A stretch of 64,000 nucleotides of DNA from Blattabacterium sp. (Blaberus giganteus) (GTDB lineage Bacteria; Bacteroidota; Bacteroidia; Flavobacteriales; Blattabacteriaceae): assembly GCF_000262715.1 (NCBI RefSeq), contig NC_017924.1:248001-312000 (forward strand), written 5' to 3'. The notes under the pieces were generated by a model. That model had not been told where the DNA came from, ran no database searches, and saw only the letters and a program-made list of their open reading frames with translations. Numbering within the stretch: position 1 is the stretch's first letter; every line of letters begins with the position of its first letter. This document shows positions 3,195 to 32,218 of this stretch, piece by piece. A program made the translations under genes and the position numbers.

Positions 3195-4433
3195 ATGAAA
3201 AACGTCAATTTTTTTATTGTTATTTTATTTACTTTTTTTTCGTCTGTATTTTCCCAGAATTCGAAAGAAAAATGGTATATCCGAATAGGAGCACATGATG
3301 TTAATTATTATCCTACTAAGTCCCCTTTTAAAGATTTTTTTCTTAAACGGAATAATAATTTCATCCCCATTATTTCTAGTATAGAATTAGAACATAAAAT
3401 AATGAAACATATAGGTTTATATTTAGATGCTTCATTAGGAGTAATTGACAATACGAGATGGAGAGTAGAAAATGATTTATTTGTAAAGATAAGTCCTGGA
3501 ATTAGTTTATACATTTTTCCTTATCATAAAATTGATCCTTATTTAAGGTTTGGAGGAGGATATCACAAATTCAGTGATTATCTAAACAGAGAGTTAAAAG
3601 TTTCAGATGAAAAATATTTTAGAACGAATAGAAATAATTTTTTACTATTAGATGGTGGATTAGGTCTAAATTTTTGGCTATTTTCCAATTTGGGATTAAA
3701 TTTAGAAAGTACTTATAATCATGTATTTGCCAAAGAATCCGGAGATTTTTTAAATTTTTGGAAACATAATATAGGATTAGTTTTTCGTTTTGGAAATATA
3801 AAAATTAGTCATGATCATAAAATCTTGATAGATGCAGATAAAAATTCTTCTTTTGTTCCTTTTTCTTCTGAAGAAAAAGAAAAAAACGGAATCAACGAAG
3901 AAAAAAAAGAAAATAAAATTTGTTGTCATCAAAAAAAGGATCAAGATCAAGAAGATCAAGAAGATTCAGATCATGATGGAATTTTAGATAAAGAAGATTT
4001 GTGTCCAGATCAATTTGGAAAAAAAGAAAATAAAGGATGTCCTGATACAGATTCAGACAATATTCCAGATCATGAAGATCAATGTCCAAATCAATTTGGA
4101 AAAAAAGAAAATAAAGGATGTCCTGATGTAGTCTTTCTCCCTATTTTATTTGATTTAGGAAAATTTTCATTATCTTATCGTTCCTTAATAAGGATTAATG
4201 AAATTGCTGAAATCATGATAAATAGTTTTCCTAATTCTAAATTTTATATAGATGGATATGCAGATGCTCATGGAAAACCTTATTATAATAAAATTTTATC
4301 TATAAAAAGAGCACATTCTGTGTTTAAAGTTTTAGTATCTAAAGGAATAGATTCTTCTAGAATTGAAGTTAGAGGATTTGGAGTCGGAAAGAAAAAAGGA
4401 CGACGTGTTGAAATCACAATACGAAAATCATAA
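3195..4433 (+). CDS. OmpA-family outer membrane protein with thrombospondin type 3-like calcium repeats
   Basis: A 412-residue secreted protein. Residues 1-20 form a signal peptide (MKNVNFFIVILFTFFSSVFS, then Q). Residues ~25-205 alternate in the manner of an outer membrane beta-barrel. Residues ~220-255 are a charged Glu/Lys/Gln-rich linker. Residues ~257-308 hold two Asp-rich TSP3-like repeats (DSDHDGILDKEDLCPD, DTDSDNIPDHEDQCPN). Residues ~312-412 are an OmpA-like peptidoglycan-binding domain with GYADAHGKPYYN and LSIKRAHSV. The end of this domain is shortened: GFGVGKKKGRRVEI lacks the usual loop before the RRVE motif. It probably anchors the outer membrane to the peptidoglycan made by the mur genes here. 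It has its own good promoter and a terminator after it. Confidence 0.88.
   Translation: MKNVNFFIVILFTFFSSVFSQNSKEKWYIRIGAHDVNYYPTKSPFKDFFLKRNNNFIPIISSIELEHKIMKHIGLYLDASLGVIDNTRWRVENDLFVKISPGISLYIFPYHKIDPYLRFGGGYHKFSDYLNRELKVSDEKYFRTNRNNFLLLDGGLGLNFWLFSNLGLNLESTYNHVFAKESGDFLNFWKHNIGLVFRFGNIKISHDHKILIDADKNSSFVPFSSEEKEKNGINEEKKENKICCHQKKDQDQEDQEDSDHDGILDKEDLCPDQFGKKENKGCPDTDSDNIPDHEDQCPNQFGKKENKGCPDVVFLPILFDLGKFSLSYRSLIRINEIAEIMINSFPNSKFYIDGYADAHGKPYYNKILSIKRAHSVFKVLVSKGIDSSRIEVRGFGVGKKKGRRVEITIRKS
4009..4127 (+). repeat. 38-nt direct repeat (two copies) encoding the TSP3-like repeats
   Basis: Bases 4009-4046 and 4090-4127 are identical over 38 nt, 81 nt apart, inside the OmpA-like gene. Each copy encodes the end of a TSP3-like unit (QFGKKENKGCPD). 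The exact DNA identity suggests recent duplication or gene conversion. Confidence 0.8.
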
Positions 4434-4434
4434 C

Positions 4435-4467
4435 AAAAAAAAGTCTCTAATTAAGAGACTTTTTTTT
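4435..4467. terminator. Bidirectional intrinsic terminator between the OmpA-like gene and tatC
   Basis: Inverted repeat with arms 4435-4448 and 4454-4467: core AGTCTCT / AGAGACT flanked by A8 on the left and T8 on the right, with a 5-nt loop. It works on paper in both directions, for the plus-strand OmpA-like gene and the minus-strand tatC. The tatC stop codon (4451-4453) lies in the loop. Confidence 0.85.
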
Positions 4468-5263
4468 TATTAGTAGTATGAAAAGATATATATACACTCA
4501 CTTGATAAAGTATTAGAAGAGGAATTAAAACGATGATTGTACTTAAAATATCTCCAGGAGTTATAGCAGAAGATATAACTAACATAATCAAAAAAGCATG
4601 TTTTCTATATTTTTTTAAAAATGAGTAGGATATTAATTCCATTTTAGCAAGAAAAAATATGAAAAATGGAAATAAAAAAAGAATGCCCATAGAAAGGACT
4701 GAATGTACAATTAAAGAGATATAATCTGATAAATCGAATATATTTTTTGGAATATGACTGATTTTAAAAGAATATCCAAAATGAATTAAGAATGGACATA
4801 ATATAAAGTAACCGAATAAAATTCCTAATAAAAAAAGAAAAGTGCCCATGAAAAGTATCCATATAGAATATTTTTTCTCTGCATCCGAAAGAGCCGGTTT
4901 TATAAATTTCCAGAATTCATAAAAAATATAAGGAAAAGACAAAATTACCCCTCCTATAAAACAAGTCCATACATAAATATGGAATTGCCCAAATATTTGT
5001 CTATTCTGTATCTCTAAATTTTTATATAAAAAAGAAACAGAATTTAAATGCATACCTAAAAAAGAAAAGGAATTGACTATTTTGTAAAATATACGATAAG
5101 TGATAAAATTTGTTTTTGCTGGACCAAAAATAATGCAGTCAAATATAATATTTCTATTGTTCATTAAAATAATCATTGAAATGATTATAGCACAAATACA
5201 ATGAATTATATGTTTTCTTAATTCTTCAATATGTTTCCAAAACGGCATTTTATTTTCGTTCAT
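4451..5263 (-). CDS. tatC: Sec-independent protein translocase TatC
   Basis: Core receptor of the twin-arginine export pathway in the inner membrane; 270 residues with about six hydrophobic segments. Family signs are the N-terminal MPFWKHIEELRKHI (usually F..HL.ELR.R), FYKIVNSFSF, YVWTCFIGGVILSFPYIFYEFWKFIKPALSDAEKK (family pattern PF...Y..W.F..PGL...E), and a C-terminal VISSAITPGDILSTIIVLIPLLILYQVSVYIS. Length is slightly above the usual ~250. No tatA/tatB is visible in the window. Confidence 0.92.
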   Translation of the reverse strand: MNENKMPFWKHIEELRKHIIHCICAIIISMIILMNNRNIIFDCIIFGPAKTNFITYRIFYKIVNSFSFLGMHLNSVSFLYKNLEIQNRQIFGQFHIYVWTCFIGGVILSFPYIFYEFWKFIKPALSDAEKKYSIWILFMGTFLFLLGILFGYFILCPFLIHFGYSFKISHIPKNIFDLSDYISLIVHSVLSMGILFLFPFFIFFLAKMELISYSFLKKYRKHAFLIMLVISSAITPGDILSTIIVLIPLLILYQVSVYISFHTTNKKKVS

Positions 5264-26546: not shown

Positions 26547-27955
26547 TGTTGCCTAATATTCCCAAAGGAACTAGAGATTTTTCATACATTGAGATGAGTA
26601 AACGAAATTATTTAATTCAAACTATTCGAAAACAATTTGAACTTTTTGGTTTCTGCTCTATAGAAACTCCTTCTATTGAAAATATTTCCACTCTTGTTGG
26701 AAAATATGGAGAAGAAGGTGATTCCTTAATATTTAAATTGTTACATTCAGGTAATTTTTTAAAAAAGAGAATTTTAGATTTTATAAAAAAAAAAGAAATT
26801 CATCATGATAAAAAAACGATTTCAAAATGTTTAATTAAATATATGTCTAATAAAGCTCTTAGATATGATTTAACGGTTCCTTTTGTCCGTTATGTGGTTA
26901 TGCATAAAAATAAAATCGTTTTTCCCTTTAAAAGATCCCAAATACAACCTGTATGGCGTGCAGATAAACCTCAAAAAGGAAGATTTAGAGAATTTTATCA
27001 ATGTGATGCGGATATCATATCATACTCTTGGTCTTTATGGGAAGAAATTGAATTAATTCAACTTTGTGACGAAATTTTTACTAAATTAAATTTTCCTATC
27101 ATTATCTACATAAATCATAGAGATATATTAAGAGGATTAGTTGATATGGCTGGTATAGAAAATAATTTATGGAAAGATTTTACTACATCTTTAGATAAAT
27201 GGAAGAAAATTGGACGAGATTTAGTAAAAAAAGAAATGCTCAACAAAGGAATTTCATCGAAATCATTTGATCAAGTGGCATTTTTTTTCGATATGAAAGA
27301 AAATTTCTATAATAAAGAAAAACATTTGACTGTCGCTTTAAAAAATTCTGAAAAAGGAAAAAAAGGGATACAGGATCTGAGTTTTATTTATAAAAATATA
27401 AAGAATATTTCTTTACAAAAGACAAAATTGGAATGGAATCTTTCTTTAGCTAGAGGAATGAATTATTATACAGGAACAATATTAGAAATTGTACCATTAA
27501 AAAATAAGAATTCTATTTCGATTGGAGGAGGAGGTAGGTATGATCAATTAGCTAATTTATTTGGAATGAATAATATTTCTGGAGTAGGAATTTCTTTAGG
27601 TTTGGATAGAATTTATTTAGCAATGGAACAAGAAAATTTGTTTAAAACTATTTCTAATTTGAATTATCCTTCAAAAGTTTTATTTATTAATTTTGGAAAT
27701 GAAGAGGTTTTGTATGCATACAAAATAATAAAATTTTTGAGAGACAAAGGAATTTCTACTCAATTATATCCTAATGTAGATAAAATAGGAAAACAGTTTA
27801 GATATGCTAATGACAACAACATTCCATTTGCTATTAGTATAGGAAAAAACGAAATCAATAAAAATAAAATCAGAATGAAAAATATTCAAAAAAGAATAGA
27901 GAAAGAATATGATAACATTCACGACGTTGTGAATCAATTAACGAAAAAACTTTGA
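26546..27955 (+). CDS. hisS: Histidyl-tRNA synthetase
   Basis: Class II synthetase, 469 residues from the ATG at 26546 (an upstream TTG at 26543 is possible but less likely). N-terminal PKGTRDFS, motif 2 region RAKPQKGRFREFYQCDADII (Asp for Arg-Ala-Asp: RADKPQKGRFREFYQCD), the His-specific LARGMNYYTGTILEI, and GGGGRYDQLANLFG then SGVGISLGLDRI as motif 3. A Lys-rich insertion (~residues 70-100) precedes RYDLTVPFVRY. It continues the dcw transcript and overlaps the convergent PnuC gene by 22 nt. Confidence 0.95.
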   Translation: MLPNIPKGTRDFSYIEMSKRNYLIQTIRKQFELFGFCSIETPSIENISTLVGKYGEEGDSLIFKLLHSGNFLKKRILDFIKKKEIHHDKKTISKCLIKYMSNKALRYDLTVPFVRYVVMHKNKIVFPFKRSQIQPVWRADKPQKGRFREFYQCDADIISYSWSLWEEIELIQLCDEIFTKLNFPIIIYINHRDILRGLVDMAGIENNLWKDFTTSLDKWKKIGRDLVKKEMLNKGISSKSFDQVAFFFDMKENFYNKEKHLTVALKNSEKGKKGIQDLSFIYKNIKNISLQKTKLEWNLSLARGMNYYTGTILEIVPLKNKNSISIGGGGRYDQLANLFGMNNISGVGISLGLDRIYLAMEQENLFKTISNLNYPSKVLFINFGNEEVLYAYKIIKFLRDKGISTQLYPNVDKIGKQFRYANDNNIPFAISIGKNEINKNKIRMKNIQKRIEKEYDNIHDVVNQLTKKL

Positions 27956-28581
27956 TTCAGCGCTTTTTTCTTCCAAATCAAAAATCCGAATATAGCCAAT
28001 AGAACAAGAATAATAAACAAAATTCCTGTCAATACAAAACCCTTAAAAAAATAAATAGGTACGGAAATTACATTTCCCACCGTCCAAAATATCCAATTTT
28101 CTACTTTTTTCATGGACATTTGATACATACCAGAAAAATAAATACCTGTAGTCAATACATCCATCCAATCATAATGAGATTGAAGTTTACCATAAAAAAA
28201 ATAAATCATCATACTGAAAATACAAGTAAATAAAAACAAAATTGAGGTATAAAAATAATCTTTTTTATTACAAAAAGTAATAGGTATTTTTTTTTTATAC
28301 TTTTTATATTTATACATCCATGTATACCATCCATAAAAACTCATCAACGTGTAATACAAGTTAATAACAAAATCTCCATAAAGAGAAGTCACAAAAGTTA
28401 AATAACTATATATGATAGTGCTGACTATTCCTATTGGATATCCCCATATATTATTTTTTTGAGCACAAAAAACACTAAATATAGTAAATGATACAGCCGT
28501 AAATTCTAAAATTATGTGAAAATAACTATTATGATAATAGGGGGATAAAAGAATATCTATCCAATTACAATTATTCATCAT
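27934..28581 (-). CDS. pnuC: PnuC-family vitamin/nucleoside transporter
   Basis: Polytopic inner-membrane protein, 215 residues with about seven hydrophobic segments. The first part, with FTAVSFTIFSVFCAQKNNIWGYPIGIVSTIIY, and the following LYYTLMSFYGWYTWM, match the PnuC family, whose members facilitate uptake of nicotinamide riboside, thiamine or riboflavin. The C-terminal WTVGNVISVPIYFFKGF also fits. The substrate cannot be told from the sequence; in an endosymbiont it may draw a vitamin precursor from the host. Its ATG overlaps the stop of the upstream phosphopantetheinyl transferase gene. Confidence 0.85.
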   Translation of the reverse strand: MMNNCNWIDILLSPYYHNSYFHIILEFTAVSFTIFSVFCAQKNNIWGYPIGIVSTIIYSYLTFVTSLYGDFVINLYYTLMSFYGWYTWMYKYKKYKKKIPITFCNKKDYFYTSILFLFTCIFSMMIYFFYGKLQSHYDWMDVLTTGIYFSGMYQMSMKKVENWIFWTVGNVISVPIYFFKGFVLTGILFIILVLLAIFGFLIWKKKALNQSFFVN

Positions 28582-29225: not shown

Positions 29226-29260
29226 TTTTTTTGTACTATTGTGAATTAATATATATGTGT

Positions 29261-30271
29261 ATGAAAAAGAAAATTGAAAAAGCGTTAGAAAATGTTATTA
29301 TTTTTGACAATAAAAATATTGTAGAGTCTGGTTTAGTAAAAAAGATAGATTTATTAAGTAATGAAATAAGAATCTATTTGAGTTTATCCAATCCTGCTAT
29401 GCATATAAAAAATAGACTCATAAAAGAGATTACTCATTCTATAAAAAATCAAAATATTTTAGATACAATACGCATAAAAATAGAAATAAAATCAGATAAA
29501 AAAATGAAATCTGTAATAAAAAATATAATCGCTATAGCCTCTGGAAAAGGAGGTGTAGGAAAATCCACAATAGCAACAAATATAGCAGTTTCTTTAGTTC
29601 AAAAGGGTTTTCATGTTGGATTATTAGATGCGGATATTTATGGCCCTTCTATTCCATTAATGTTTAATATTGAAGAACAATCTGTAAATTTTCAACATCA
29701 AAATGGAATGATGAATCCTATTACTAGTTATGGAGTTAAAATTCTATCTATAGGTTTTTTTTCAAAATATGGACAAGCTATTGTTTGGAGAGGCCCCATG
29801 GTGACTAAAGTTTTAAGACAATTTATGCATGAAACCAATTGGGGAAAATTGGATTTTTTAATTGTAGATTTACCACCAGGAACAGGGGATATTCATTTAT
29901 CTCTTTTGCAAGAGATTCCATTAAAAGGAATTATTATAGTCAGTACATCTCAAAAGATTGCCTTATCGGATGTAAATCGTTCTGTAGGAATGTTTCGTAT
30001 CAGATCTATTTATGTTCCTATCCTTGGAATTATAGAAAATATGTCTTACGTTATTTCAAAAGAAACTAAAGATAAATGCTATTTTTTTGGAAAAAATGGA
30101 GTCAGAGATTTTTCAAAAAAAATGAATATTTTTTTTCTTGGCGGAATTCCTATGTTACAAGAAATACGAGAATATTCAGATTTAGGAATTCCTGTTGTTT
30201 TAGATAACGAGTATATTAGAAATATATTTCTAAAAATTACGGAAAAGATTATTCATAAATTGCATGAATAA
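29261..30271 (+). CDS. mrp: Mrp/NBP35-type P-loop ATPase (iron-sulfur carrier)
   Basis: 336 residues from ATG 29261; ATG 29255 is an alternative, and the longer frame would need TTG. Residues ~1-82 form a MIP18-like (DUF59) domain. The ATPase domain has the deviant Walker A IASGKGGVGKSTIATNIA, DADIYGPSIPLM, DLPPGTGDIHLSLLQ, and GIIENMSYV. The CxxC motif that follows ENMSY in many Mrp proteins and carries the Fe-S cluster is missing (VISKETKDKCYFFG has a single Cys). It may assemble or carry Fe-S clusters for enzymes such as MtaB. Confidence 0.9.
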   Translation: MKKKIEKALENVIIFDNKNIVESGLVKKIDLLSNEIRIYLSLSNPAMHIKNRLIKEITHSIKNQNILDTIRIKIEIKSDKKMKSVIKNIIAIASGKGGVGKSTIATNIAVSLVQKGFHVGLLDADIYGPSIPLMFNIEEQSVNFQHQNGMMNPITSYGVKILSIGFFSKYGQAIVWRGPMVTKVLRQFMHETNWGKLDFLIVDLPPGTGDIHLSLLQEIPLKGIIIVSTSQKIALSDVNRSVGMFRIRSIYVPILGIIENMSYVISKETKDKCYFFGKNGVRDFSKKMNIFFLGGIPMLQEIREYSDLGIPVVLDNEYIRNIFLKITEKIIHKLHE

Positions 30272-30289: not shown

Positions 30290-31096
30290 TCATAAACAAA
30301 GTTTTATAAATTCTTTTACTATTAATATTAGTAGAGATATAGATTTTTCTATTTCTTTATAAAAGGGATTAAAAAAATTGATTTCATCTGAATTATATTC
30401 CTTATATTTAGATTGTTCATATAATCCCATTACAATAGATATAGCAAATACTCGTAAATTTATACATCTGGCTGTTATGACATCTGTTACTATATTCATT
30501 CCTACACTATCCCCTCCCATAGATCGTATCATAGCATATTCTGCATAGGTTTTGTAATTAGGATAAGGATAAGCAACATATACTCCTTTTTGAATAATGA
30601 TATTATGATTCATTGCAATGTTTTCTGCAATTTCTATCATTTTTTTATCATATGGTTCTGTAATTTTAAAAAATCTATTTTTTATAAATTCTTTTATATT
30701 AGGATTTTCCGGAAAAAAATTGATATGATCCTTAATCAACATAACATCTCCTATTTTGTAATTTGGATTTACTCCTCCAGAAATATTAATTAATATTAAT
30801 TTATCTATTCCTAGATCTTTACATAATACAATAGGAAAATGATTTGTTTTTTTTTCTTCAAAAAAAGGTTCTATTAAAAAAACCACATTTTTATCTTCTA
30901 TTTTCCCAAAAAAAATTTTTCCATGTAAATTTTTTTTTGAAAAAATGGGTATTTCTTCATAAGAAATGCATACAGGATTTTTGATCTCCTCTATCAGTTT
31001 ATCAAATTGATTTCCTAATAATAAAATTCCAAAATCAGGTTTTTCTTTGATTTTTGTTTGTATGTATTGTTTTGATTTTTCTAAACTCATAGTCAT
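30290..31096 (-). CDS. Purine nucleoside phosphorylase homologue lacking active-site residues
   Basis: A 268-residue protein with the fold-level signature of trimeric purine nucleoside phosphorylase: LGIDKLILINISGGVNP, KIGDVMLIKDHINFFPENP and VITARCINLRVFAIS. The catalytic residues are mostly gone. GSGLG/GTGLG (phosphate Ser) is GNQF near residue 28; the GRxHxYEGY loop is absent; GPxxET, with the purine-binding Glu, is YPNYKT (Lys182); GMST is GMNI; and the (N/D) after IS.IT is replaced by Gly. The frame is intact and starts at ATG 31096 (or 31090). It may be a pseudoenzyme, a changed enzyme, or a gene in early decay. Confidence 0.8.
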   Translation of the reverse strand: MTMSLEKSKQYIQTKIKEKPDFGILLLGNQFDKLIEEIKNPVCISYEEIPIFSKKNLHGKIFFGKIEDKNVVFLIEPFFEEKKTNHFPIVLCKDLGIDKLILINISGGVNPNYKIGDVMLIKDHINFFPENPNIKEFIKNRFFKITEPYDKKMIEIAENIAMNHNIIIQKGVYVAYPYPNYKTYAEYAMIRSMGGDSVGMNIVTDVITARCINLRVFAISIVMGLYEQSKYKEYNSDEINFFNPFYKEIEKSISLLILIVKEFIKLCL

Positions 31097-31183: not shown

Positions 31184-32218
31184 TTATTGTATGACATTTA
31201 CTTCTCTTGATAAAGAAATACCAAACTTTTTTTTTATATTTTTTGTTATTCTTTCTGAAAAAGAATATATATCCATTCCAGTAGCTTTTCCATAATTGAC
31301 TAAAATGATAGGTTTTTTTTTATATATCCCTACATTTCTAATTTTTTTTTCTTTCCATTCTATATTTTCAATTAATGAATTAGCAGAGAGCTTGACTTTG
31401 TGATTAGAAATATTATAACCTATAATAGCGGGATATTTATGTTTTAGTTTTTTAAACTCTAAGATCCCTACTACAGGATTTATAAAAAAACTACCAGCAT
31501 TTCCAATATTTTTTGGATTTGGAAGTTTTCTATGTCTAATATTAAAAATCGCCTGATTTAAATTGTGAATAGTAGGGATTTTAACATTCATATTTTCTAA
31601 TTCTTTTTGAATTTCCACATAAGATGTATTTAATTGTTTATATTTCTTTTTTAGAAGAAAAAAAACAGACAAAATTAAAAATTTATTTTTATAATAAGGA
31701 CGATTAAAAAAAGAATAACGATATTTTAGTTGACATTCTTCACGTGTAAATTCTCTTATTTTTCTATTATTTGTTTCATATGCTTGTACTTTTATTAAAG
31801 TATCTTTTACTTCTGCTCCATATGCTCCAATGTTTTGAATGGGTGCAGCTCCAACTGTCCCAGGAATAAATGATAAATTTTCTAAACCATTAAATCCTTT
31901 TTTTATCGTCCAGTTTACAAATTCATTCCAATTTTCTCCAGCACAAGCTTGAACAATGACTTGATCATCATTTTCTTTGATCACTTTTTTTCCTTTCATT
32001 CCCATTTTTATTACTAGTCCCGGATAATAATTTTTTAAAAAAAGAATATTACTTCCATTTCCTAAAAAAAGTTTTGAAATGGATGTATACATATCAAAAA
32101 TTTTTTGAATTTCTTCTATACTTTTCACTTCTACAAAATAACGAGCATAAACATTTATTCCAAATGTATTGAATTTTTTTAGAGAAAAGTTTTTTTTTAA
32201 GTTTTTTTTAATGAACAT
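31184..32218 (-). CDS. murB: UDP-N-acetylenolpyruvoylglucosamine reductase
   Basis: FAD/NADPH enzyme making UDP-MurNAc; 344 residues, the longer E. coli-like type I form. Signs: NTFGINVYARYFVEV at the start, FLGNGSNILFL (FAD), the GLENLSFIPGTVGAAPIQNIGAYGAEV segment, YRYSFF, HRKLPNPKNIGNAGSFFINPVV (catalytic Ser in GNAGSFF), and the C-terminal NYGKATGMDIYSFSERI with a final REVNVI (catalytic Glu). It supplies the dcw mur enzymes with substrate. Confidence 0.96.
   Translation of the reverse strand: MFIKKNLKKNFSLKKFNTFGINVYARYFVEVKSIEEIQKIFDMYTSISKLFLGNGSNILFLKNYYPGLVIKMGMKGKKVIKENDDQVIVQACAGENWNEFVNWTIKKGFNGLENLSFIPGTVGAAPIQNIGAYGAEVKDTLIKVQAYETNNRKIREFTREECQLKYRYSFFNRPYYKNKFLILSVFFLLKKKYKQLNTSYVEIQKELENMNVKIPTIHNLNQAIFNIRHRKLPNPKNIGNAGSFFINPVVGILEFKKLKHKYPAIIGYNISNHKVKLSANSLIENIEWKEKKIRNVGIYKKKPIILVNYGKATGMDIYSFSERITKNIKKKFGISLSREVNVIQ

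Follow-up and report, generated by a model that had tools for sequence, protein, structure and literature searches.

Trimeric purine nucleoside phosphorylases (PNP; PunA / PNP-I) serve in purine salvage and depend on a small set of residues: Glu201 and Asn243 make the purine contacts and are crucial for catalysis, and Ser33, Arg84 and His86 are contacts in the phosphate site (PMC9916683, PMC10226123). In Blattabacterium, estimated to have been associated with its hosts for more than 200 million years (PMC9603385), the orthologue of the gene described here is annotated as purine-nucleoside phosphorylase in the symbiont of B. germanica. In the metabolic model iCG238, BLBBGE_377 was given seven reactions of EC 2.4.2.1; every one of them was blocked, and the authors left BLBBGE_377 out, its role not found (PMC3819652). 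No earlier report of active-site loss in Blattabacterium PNP was found in the literature searched. The window analyzed here, a stretch of 64,000 nucleotides, comes from the 632,588-base genome of the Blaberus giganteus symbiont and contains such a gene, ORF 30290-31096.

A PNP homologue between mrp and murB

The boundaries of ORF 30290-31096 (minus strand, 268 residues) are confirmed exactly, and profile analysis reports a strong hit with PF01048 (E 6.4e-31; score 108 versus a gathering cut-off of 25.1), which bears out the preliminary description of an intact reading frame homologous to PNP. This cut-off is passed by all 41 Blattabacterium carriers, and the protein is a homologue of the trimeric-type PNP. 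By score it belongs to the PNP_UDP_1 superfamily (PF01048) and stays below the cut-offs of the NCBIfam PNP equivalogs TIGR01697 (164.5 versus 197.1), TIGR01700 (171.5 versus 293.35) and NF006054 (185.9 versus 218). A second PF01048 protein, either another PNP or a nucleosidase, is found in none of the 49 Blattabacterium genomes, and since there is one PF01048 gene per genome, BLBBGE_377 would be the orthologue of this ORF.

The AlphaFold2 model exhibits the PNP fold with a mean pLDDT of 83.1, lowest in the former active-site loops 79-82 (below 50) and 235-243. The closest solved sequences and folds are the PNPs of Bacteroides fragilis (8swt) and Spirosoma (4lna), the latter being the best match reported by VIA-align 2 (Z 32.4, rmsd 2.2 over 259 residues). 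With these trimeric enzymes the Blattabacterium protein shares the gene lineage, the synteny, some trimer-interface residues and the fold (Z 31-32, with an rmsd of 2.2 across about 257 residues). It differs from them in that the contacts to phosphate, ribose and purine are almost all lost, in its conservation pattern and in its scores below the equivalog cut-offs. The interface residues largely kept are N126 (41/41), E186 (41/41), N180 (36/41) and F142 (35/41), which correspond to calf N137, E205, N199 and F159, respectively; others, in the Met87/Tyr91 loop and the calf Arg148 region, sit in parts that have turned variable. The protein would still form a trimer, to judge from its sequence.

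The gene order is identical in all carriers: mrp/apbC (29231-30271, plus strand), present in 49/49 genomes, converges on pnp, and murB (31184-32218, minus strand) lies upstream of pnp on the same strand after a gap of about 90 bp. An intact pnp without internal stop is found in 41 of the 49 genomes, and in the remaining eight it is gone from between mrp and murB. In the smallest genome of the set, G015, a 654-bp non-coding stretch at this place (L121, 2990-3644) matches pnp weakly (best E 0.003) and is probably a degenerate pnp remnant. The 227-bp gap between mrp and murB in G030 was also considered as a pnp pseudogene and rejected, as it gave no convincing match. On a midpoint-rooted FastTree tree of five neighbouring proteins, the eight pnp-less genomes form at least three groups; pnp was thus lost at least three times, in reduced lineages, and its role is therefore dispensable in some hosts.

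Other genes of the region vary as well. The murB gene of L113 (genome G008; 3912-5055) returns only a partial match of about 195 residues, separated from pnp by nearly 600 bp, and may be broken or frameshifted. Internal stops occur in the extended frames of mrp (L085), sfp (L092, L109) and pnuC (L099, L106), possibly reflecting decay, a frameshift or an artefact of the extension. The gene of the nicotinamide riboside transporter PnuC (27934-28581) lies two genes away from pnp; 7/49 genomes lack it, and five of these are also devoid of pnp (hypergeometric probability 5.5e-4, phylogeny ignored).

Loss of the phosphate and purine contacts

The Bacteroidetes endosymbiont of Geopemphigus aphids (L127) is the sister of Blattabacterium in both the PNP and the MurB trees (joint clade support 1.0). 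Its PNP, the closest relative of the Blattabacterium protein (44% identity), is orthologous and syntenic, but differs by a complete active site, with all catalytic residues present, and by passing all three PNP cut-offs (e.g. 370.3 versus 218). The locus reads murB-lpxK-pnp in this symbiont, and free-living relatives usually have lpxK beside pnp as well (81 of the 96 flavobacterial loci); it is therefore Blattabacterium that is without lpxK at the pnp locus. The Blattabacterium pnp has its orthologue in the PNP gene that is linked to lpxK in free-living Flavobacteriales and, because the syntenic Geopemphigus symbiont orthologue has a complete active site, the active site was lost once, on the Blattabacterium stem.

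The residue tally covers 41 sequences from Blattabacterium and 35 from the outgroup, with human PNP numbering for the catalytic positions. His64, Arg84, His86, Ala116, Glu201, Ser220 and Asp243 are invariant in the outgroup, where Thr242 is once Ser and His257 is variable. Of the phosphate-site residues, His64, Arg84, His86, Ala116 and Ser220 are found in none of the 41 Blattabacterium proteins and Ser33 in 14; of the purine-site residues, Glu201 is likewise absent from all and Asn/Asp243 is kept once. The substitutions listed in the preliminary description (GNQF, Glu to Lys182, GMNI, and Gly for Asn/Asp) are real and genus-wide, and relatives outside the genus keep the catalytic residues. Alternative alignments that might bring these residues back were run, and none restored them.

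Along the sequence, the former phosphate loop (residues 27-32; 31001-31018, this and the following segments being on the minus strand) reads LGNQFD instead of LGSGLG, with Gly34 replaced by Gln in 38/41 and L35 by F in 40/41; the loop was described as replaced, which holds for Gly34 and less so for the variable position 33, still Ser in the 14 proteins mentioned. Two further losses had been overlooked, those of His64 and His257. The former His64 loop (residues 51-58; 30923-30946) is shortened, with an alignment gap at His64 in 41/41; His58 was considered as a displaced His64 and rejected, the same position being Tyr in 35/41. The former Arg84-His86-Tyr88 loop (residues 74-86; 30839-30877) was reported as gone; Arg84 and His86 are indeed lost throughout, but the loop is shortened, variable and scrambled rather than absent, since 37/41 proteins retain Glu89 and 25/41 have an aligned Tyr88, and it contains the newly fixed Glu76. 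In the Asn115-Ala116 region, N104-I105-S106-G107 (30776-30787), the supposed replacement of an Ala pair by IS concerns the first residue, Ala116 being Ile in 35/41, but not the second, where Ser is normal and occurs in most of the Flavobacteriales outgroups (24/35). The former purine-binding GPxFET motif (residues 178-183; 30548-30565) reads YPNYKT, with Tyr178 and Tyr181 in 41/41 and Lys182 in place of Glu201 in 39/41. The former GMST motif (residues 199-205; 30482-30502) reads GMNIVTD, the Ser220 position being Asn or Asp in 40/41. Lastly, the region from Thr242 and Asn/Asp243 to His257 (residues 222-245; 30362-30433) is length-variable and of low model confidence; Thr242 is kept in 2/41, the single residue kept at position 243 is Asp, Gly occupying it in 32/41, and His257 is not conserved. 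Besides Glu89, the retained residues are Asn115 (41/41), Phe159 (35/41) and Met219 (32/41).

Outgroup-conserved columns are kept at 1/11 active-site positions versus 24/48 others (Fisher p = 0.017). The active site is hit preferentially, as first proposed, but not exclusively: one in two of the other conserved columns has changed as well, and the scaffold has not simply stayed as it was.

Purifying selection and displaced constraint

FastTree branch lengths over matched genomes, which are approximate as the Blattabacterium node itself has low support, amount for PNP to 1.01 substitutions per site on the stem, 0.175 on the sister tip and 0.476 for the crown depth, as compared with 0.44, 0.575 and 0.442 for the MurB control. 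PNP thus went through a burst of substitution on the stem, followed by a crown rate like that of MurB. In ten close pairs the dN/dS of pnp is 0.08-0.26 (pairwise values from experimental YN00 code), a range matching murB, mrp, rlmB and pheS; the codon-model omega is 0.218 versus 0.203-0.209 for the comparison genes, and across the 36 shared genomes amino-acid identity averages 0.729 for PNP and 0.743 for MurB. The gene is retained under purifying selection across the crown.

This selection acts on a different part of the protein than in free-living relatives. The rank correlation of site entropy between Blattabacterium and these relatives is -0.002 for PNP versus 0.51 for MurB over eight matched genomes (-0.03 for PNP over 76 sequences), and Blattabacterium keeps 43% of the free-living-invariant columns in PNP versus 78% in MurB. 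The old active-site loops are the most variable parts of PNP within the genus. Residues 158-171, ENIAMNHNIIIQKG (30584-30625, minus strand), form a newly constrained segment with a mean entropy of 0.10 versus 1.60 in free-living relatives, and 7 of the 18 newly constrained sites fall within this single 14-residue window (p = 0.0008). Counted from Tyr192/Glu201, the segment falls on calf PNP 177-190, outside the published trimer interface regions 87-91, 141-168 and 196-205, and it is a candidate new binding surface. Several old pocket positions are also fixed to new residues, namely Q30, F31, E76, I103, Y178, Y181, K182 and N/D201, all invariant or nearly so.

A 67-codon antisense ORF (30590-30793) overlaps the stretch encoding residues 158-171, so that the DNA, through an embedded RNA or an antisense gene, could be what is conserved there. 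This is contradicted by synonymous variation of 0.90 in the segment versus a gene average of 0.65: synonymous sites vary freely, the constraint is therefore at the protein level, and the DNA-level explanation is extremely improbable.

Probable function of the protein and comparison with pseudoenzymes

As nearly all catalytic parts are lost and yet pnp is intact, under selection and with its constraint moved, the Blattabacterium protein probably does another, non-catalytic job. It lacks the catalytic residues and is retained under purifying selection, as is characteristic of a pseudoenzyme, and we consider it rather likely that it is a conserved pseudoenzyme with a new role based on binding instead of phosphorolysis, an activity of which, judging from the residues replaced, nothing would remain. 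On the Blattabacterium stem, a normal trimeric PNP was stripped of its contacts to phosphate, ribose and purine but kept its fold and part of its trimer interface. It would have gained a binding-based role in place of phosphorolysis, residues 158-171 serving as a contact surface for a protein partner or as a new self-assembly contact. More specifically, and tentatively, the stem PNP may have become a dedicated protein-binding factor, that is a genus-specific scaffold or regulator with 158-171 as its new surface, kept by most species in spite of genomes of about 600 kb. Such repurposing would explain why all seven PNP reactions are blocked in the published model. As for the surrounding metabolism, the PF00156 proteins found in this genome comprise only PrsA, PurF and a PyrE-PyrF fusion, as identified by eye, and therefore no purine-base salvage transferase is seen for a PNP product; in L206, a single 455-residue ORF (1324-2691) reads as this fusion of orotate phosphoribosyltransferase (PyrE) and OMP decarboxylase (PyrF).

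The main rival is a re-tooled pocket, by which the protein would be an enzyme or a sensor for a new ligand. It is a serious one because Q30, F31, E76, I103, Y178, Y181 and K182 are newly fixed and, together with N/D201, differ from the free-living PNP invariants, several of them flanking the old phosphate and purine sites. However, the loops that close the pocket (His64, Arg84-His86, Thr242-His257 and the Phe159 gate) are the most variable and length-variable ones, which is unusual for an active site, and the strongest new conservation, at 158-171, lies outside the pocket, so that a re-tooled pocket seems on the whole unlikely, if less so than the two remaining explanations. One of these, persisting PNP or nucleosidase activity based on non-standard residues, could draw on the PNP-like fold (Z 32.4) and on the partly kept Tyr88, Glu89, Phe159 and Met219 positions. 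It is nevertheless very improbable in view of the missing Glu201, Arg84, His86 and Ser220, of Asn/Asp243 surviving in one protein, of Ile replacing Ala116 in most, and of scores below PNP cut-offs that the sister protein passes. Hardly more credible is a functionless, decaying gene: the losses, at least three in number, and the likely degenerate remnant in G015 do speak for it, but 41 genomes have pnp without stop codons, dN/dS equals that of neighbouring enzymes and is low in close pairs, the crown rate is like that of MurB and one segment is almost invariant. Among the three options raised by the preliminary description, early decay is consequently rejected for the 41 carriers and applies only where pnp is gone or a remnant; a new substrate is in keeping with the pocket positions fixed to new residues but fits less well than a pseudoenzyme with a structural or binding role, which best accommodates the stem loss, the crown-wide purifying selection and the newly conserved segment.

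A binding-based role would make this locus a clean natural case of conversion from enzyme to binder, for which the intact sister provides the comparison. The annotation EC 2.4.2.1 is likewise called into question; it has left a published metabolic model with reactions for which the authors found no place. Functionless genes should disappear from strongly reduced symbiont genomes, and here a stripped enzyme is kept by most of the genus. Within the PNP superfamily, the plant bark storage proteins are non-enzymatic relatives. As in pseudoenzymes in general, an enzyme fold is kept and selected without its catalytic residues, but the Blattabacterium case differs in being bacterial and genus-wide, and in occurring where the symbiont genome is reduced and contains no active paralogue.
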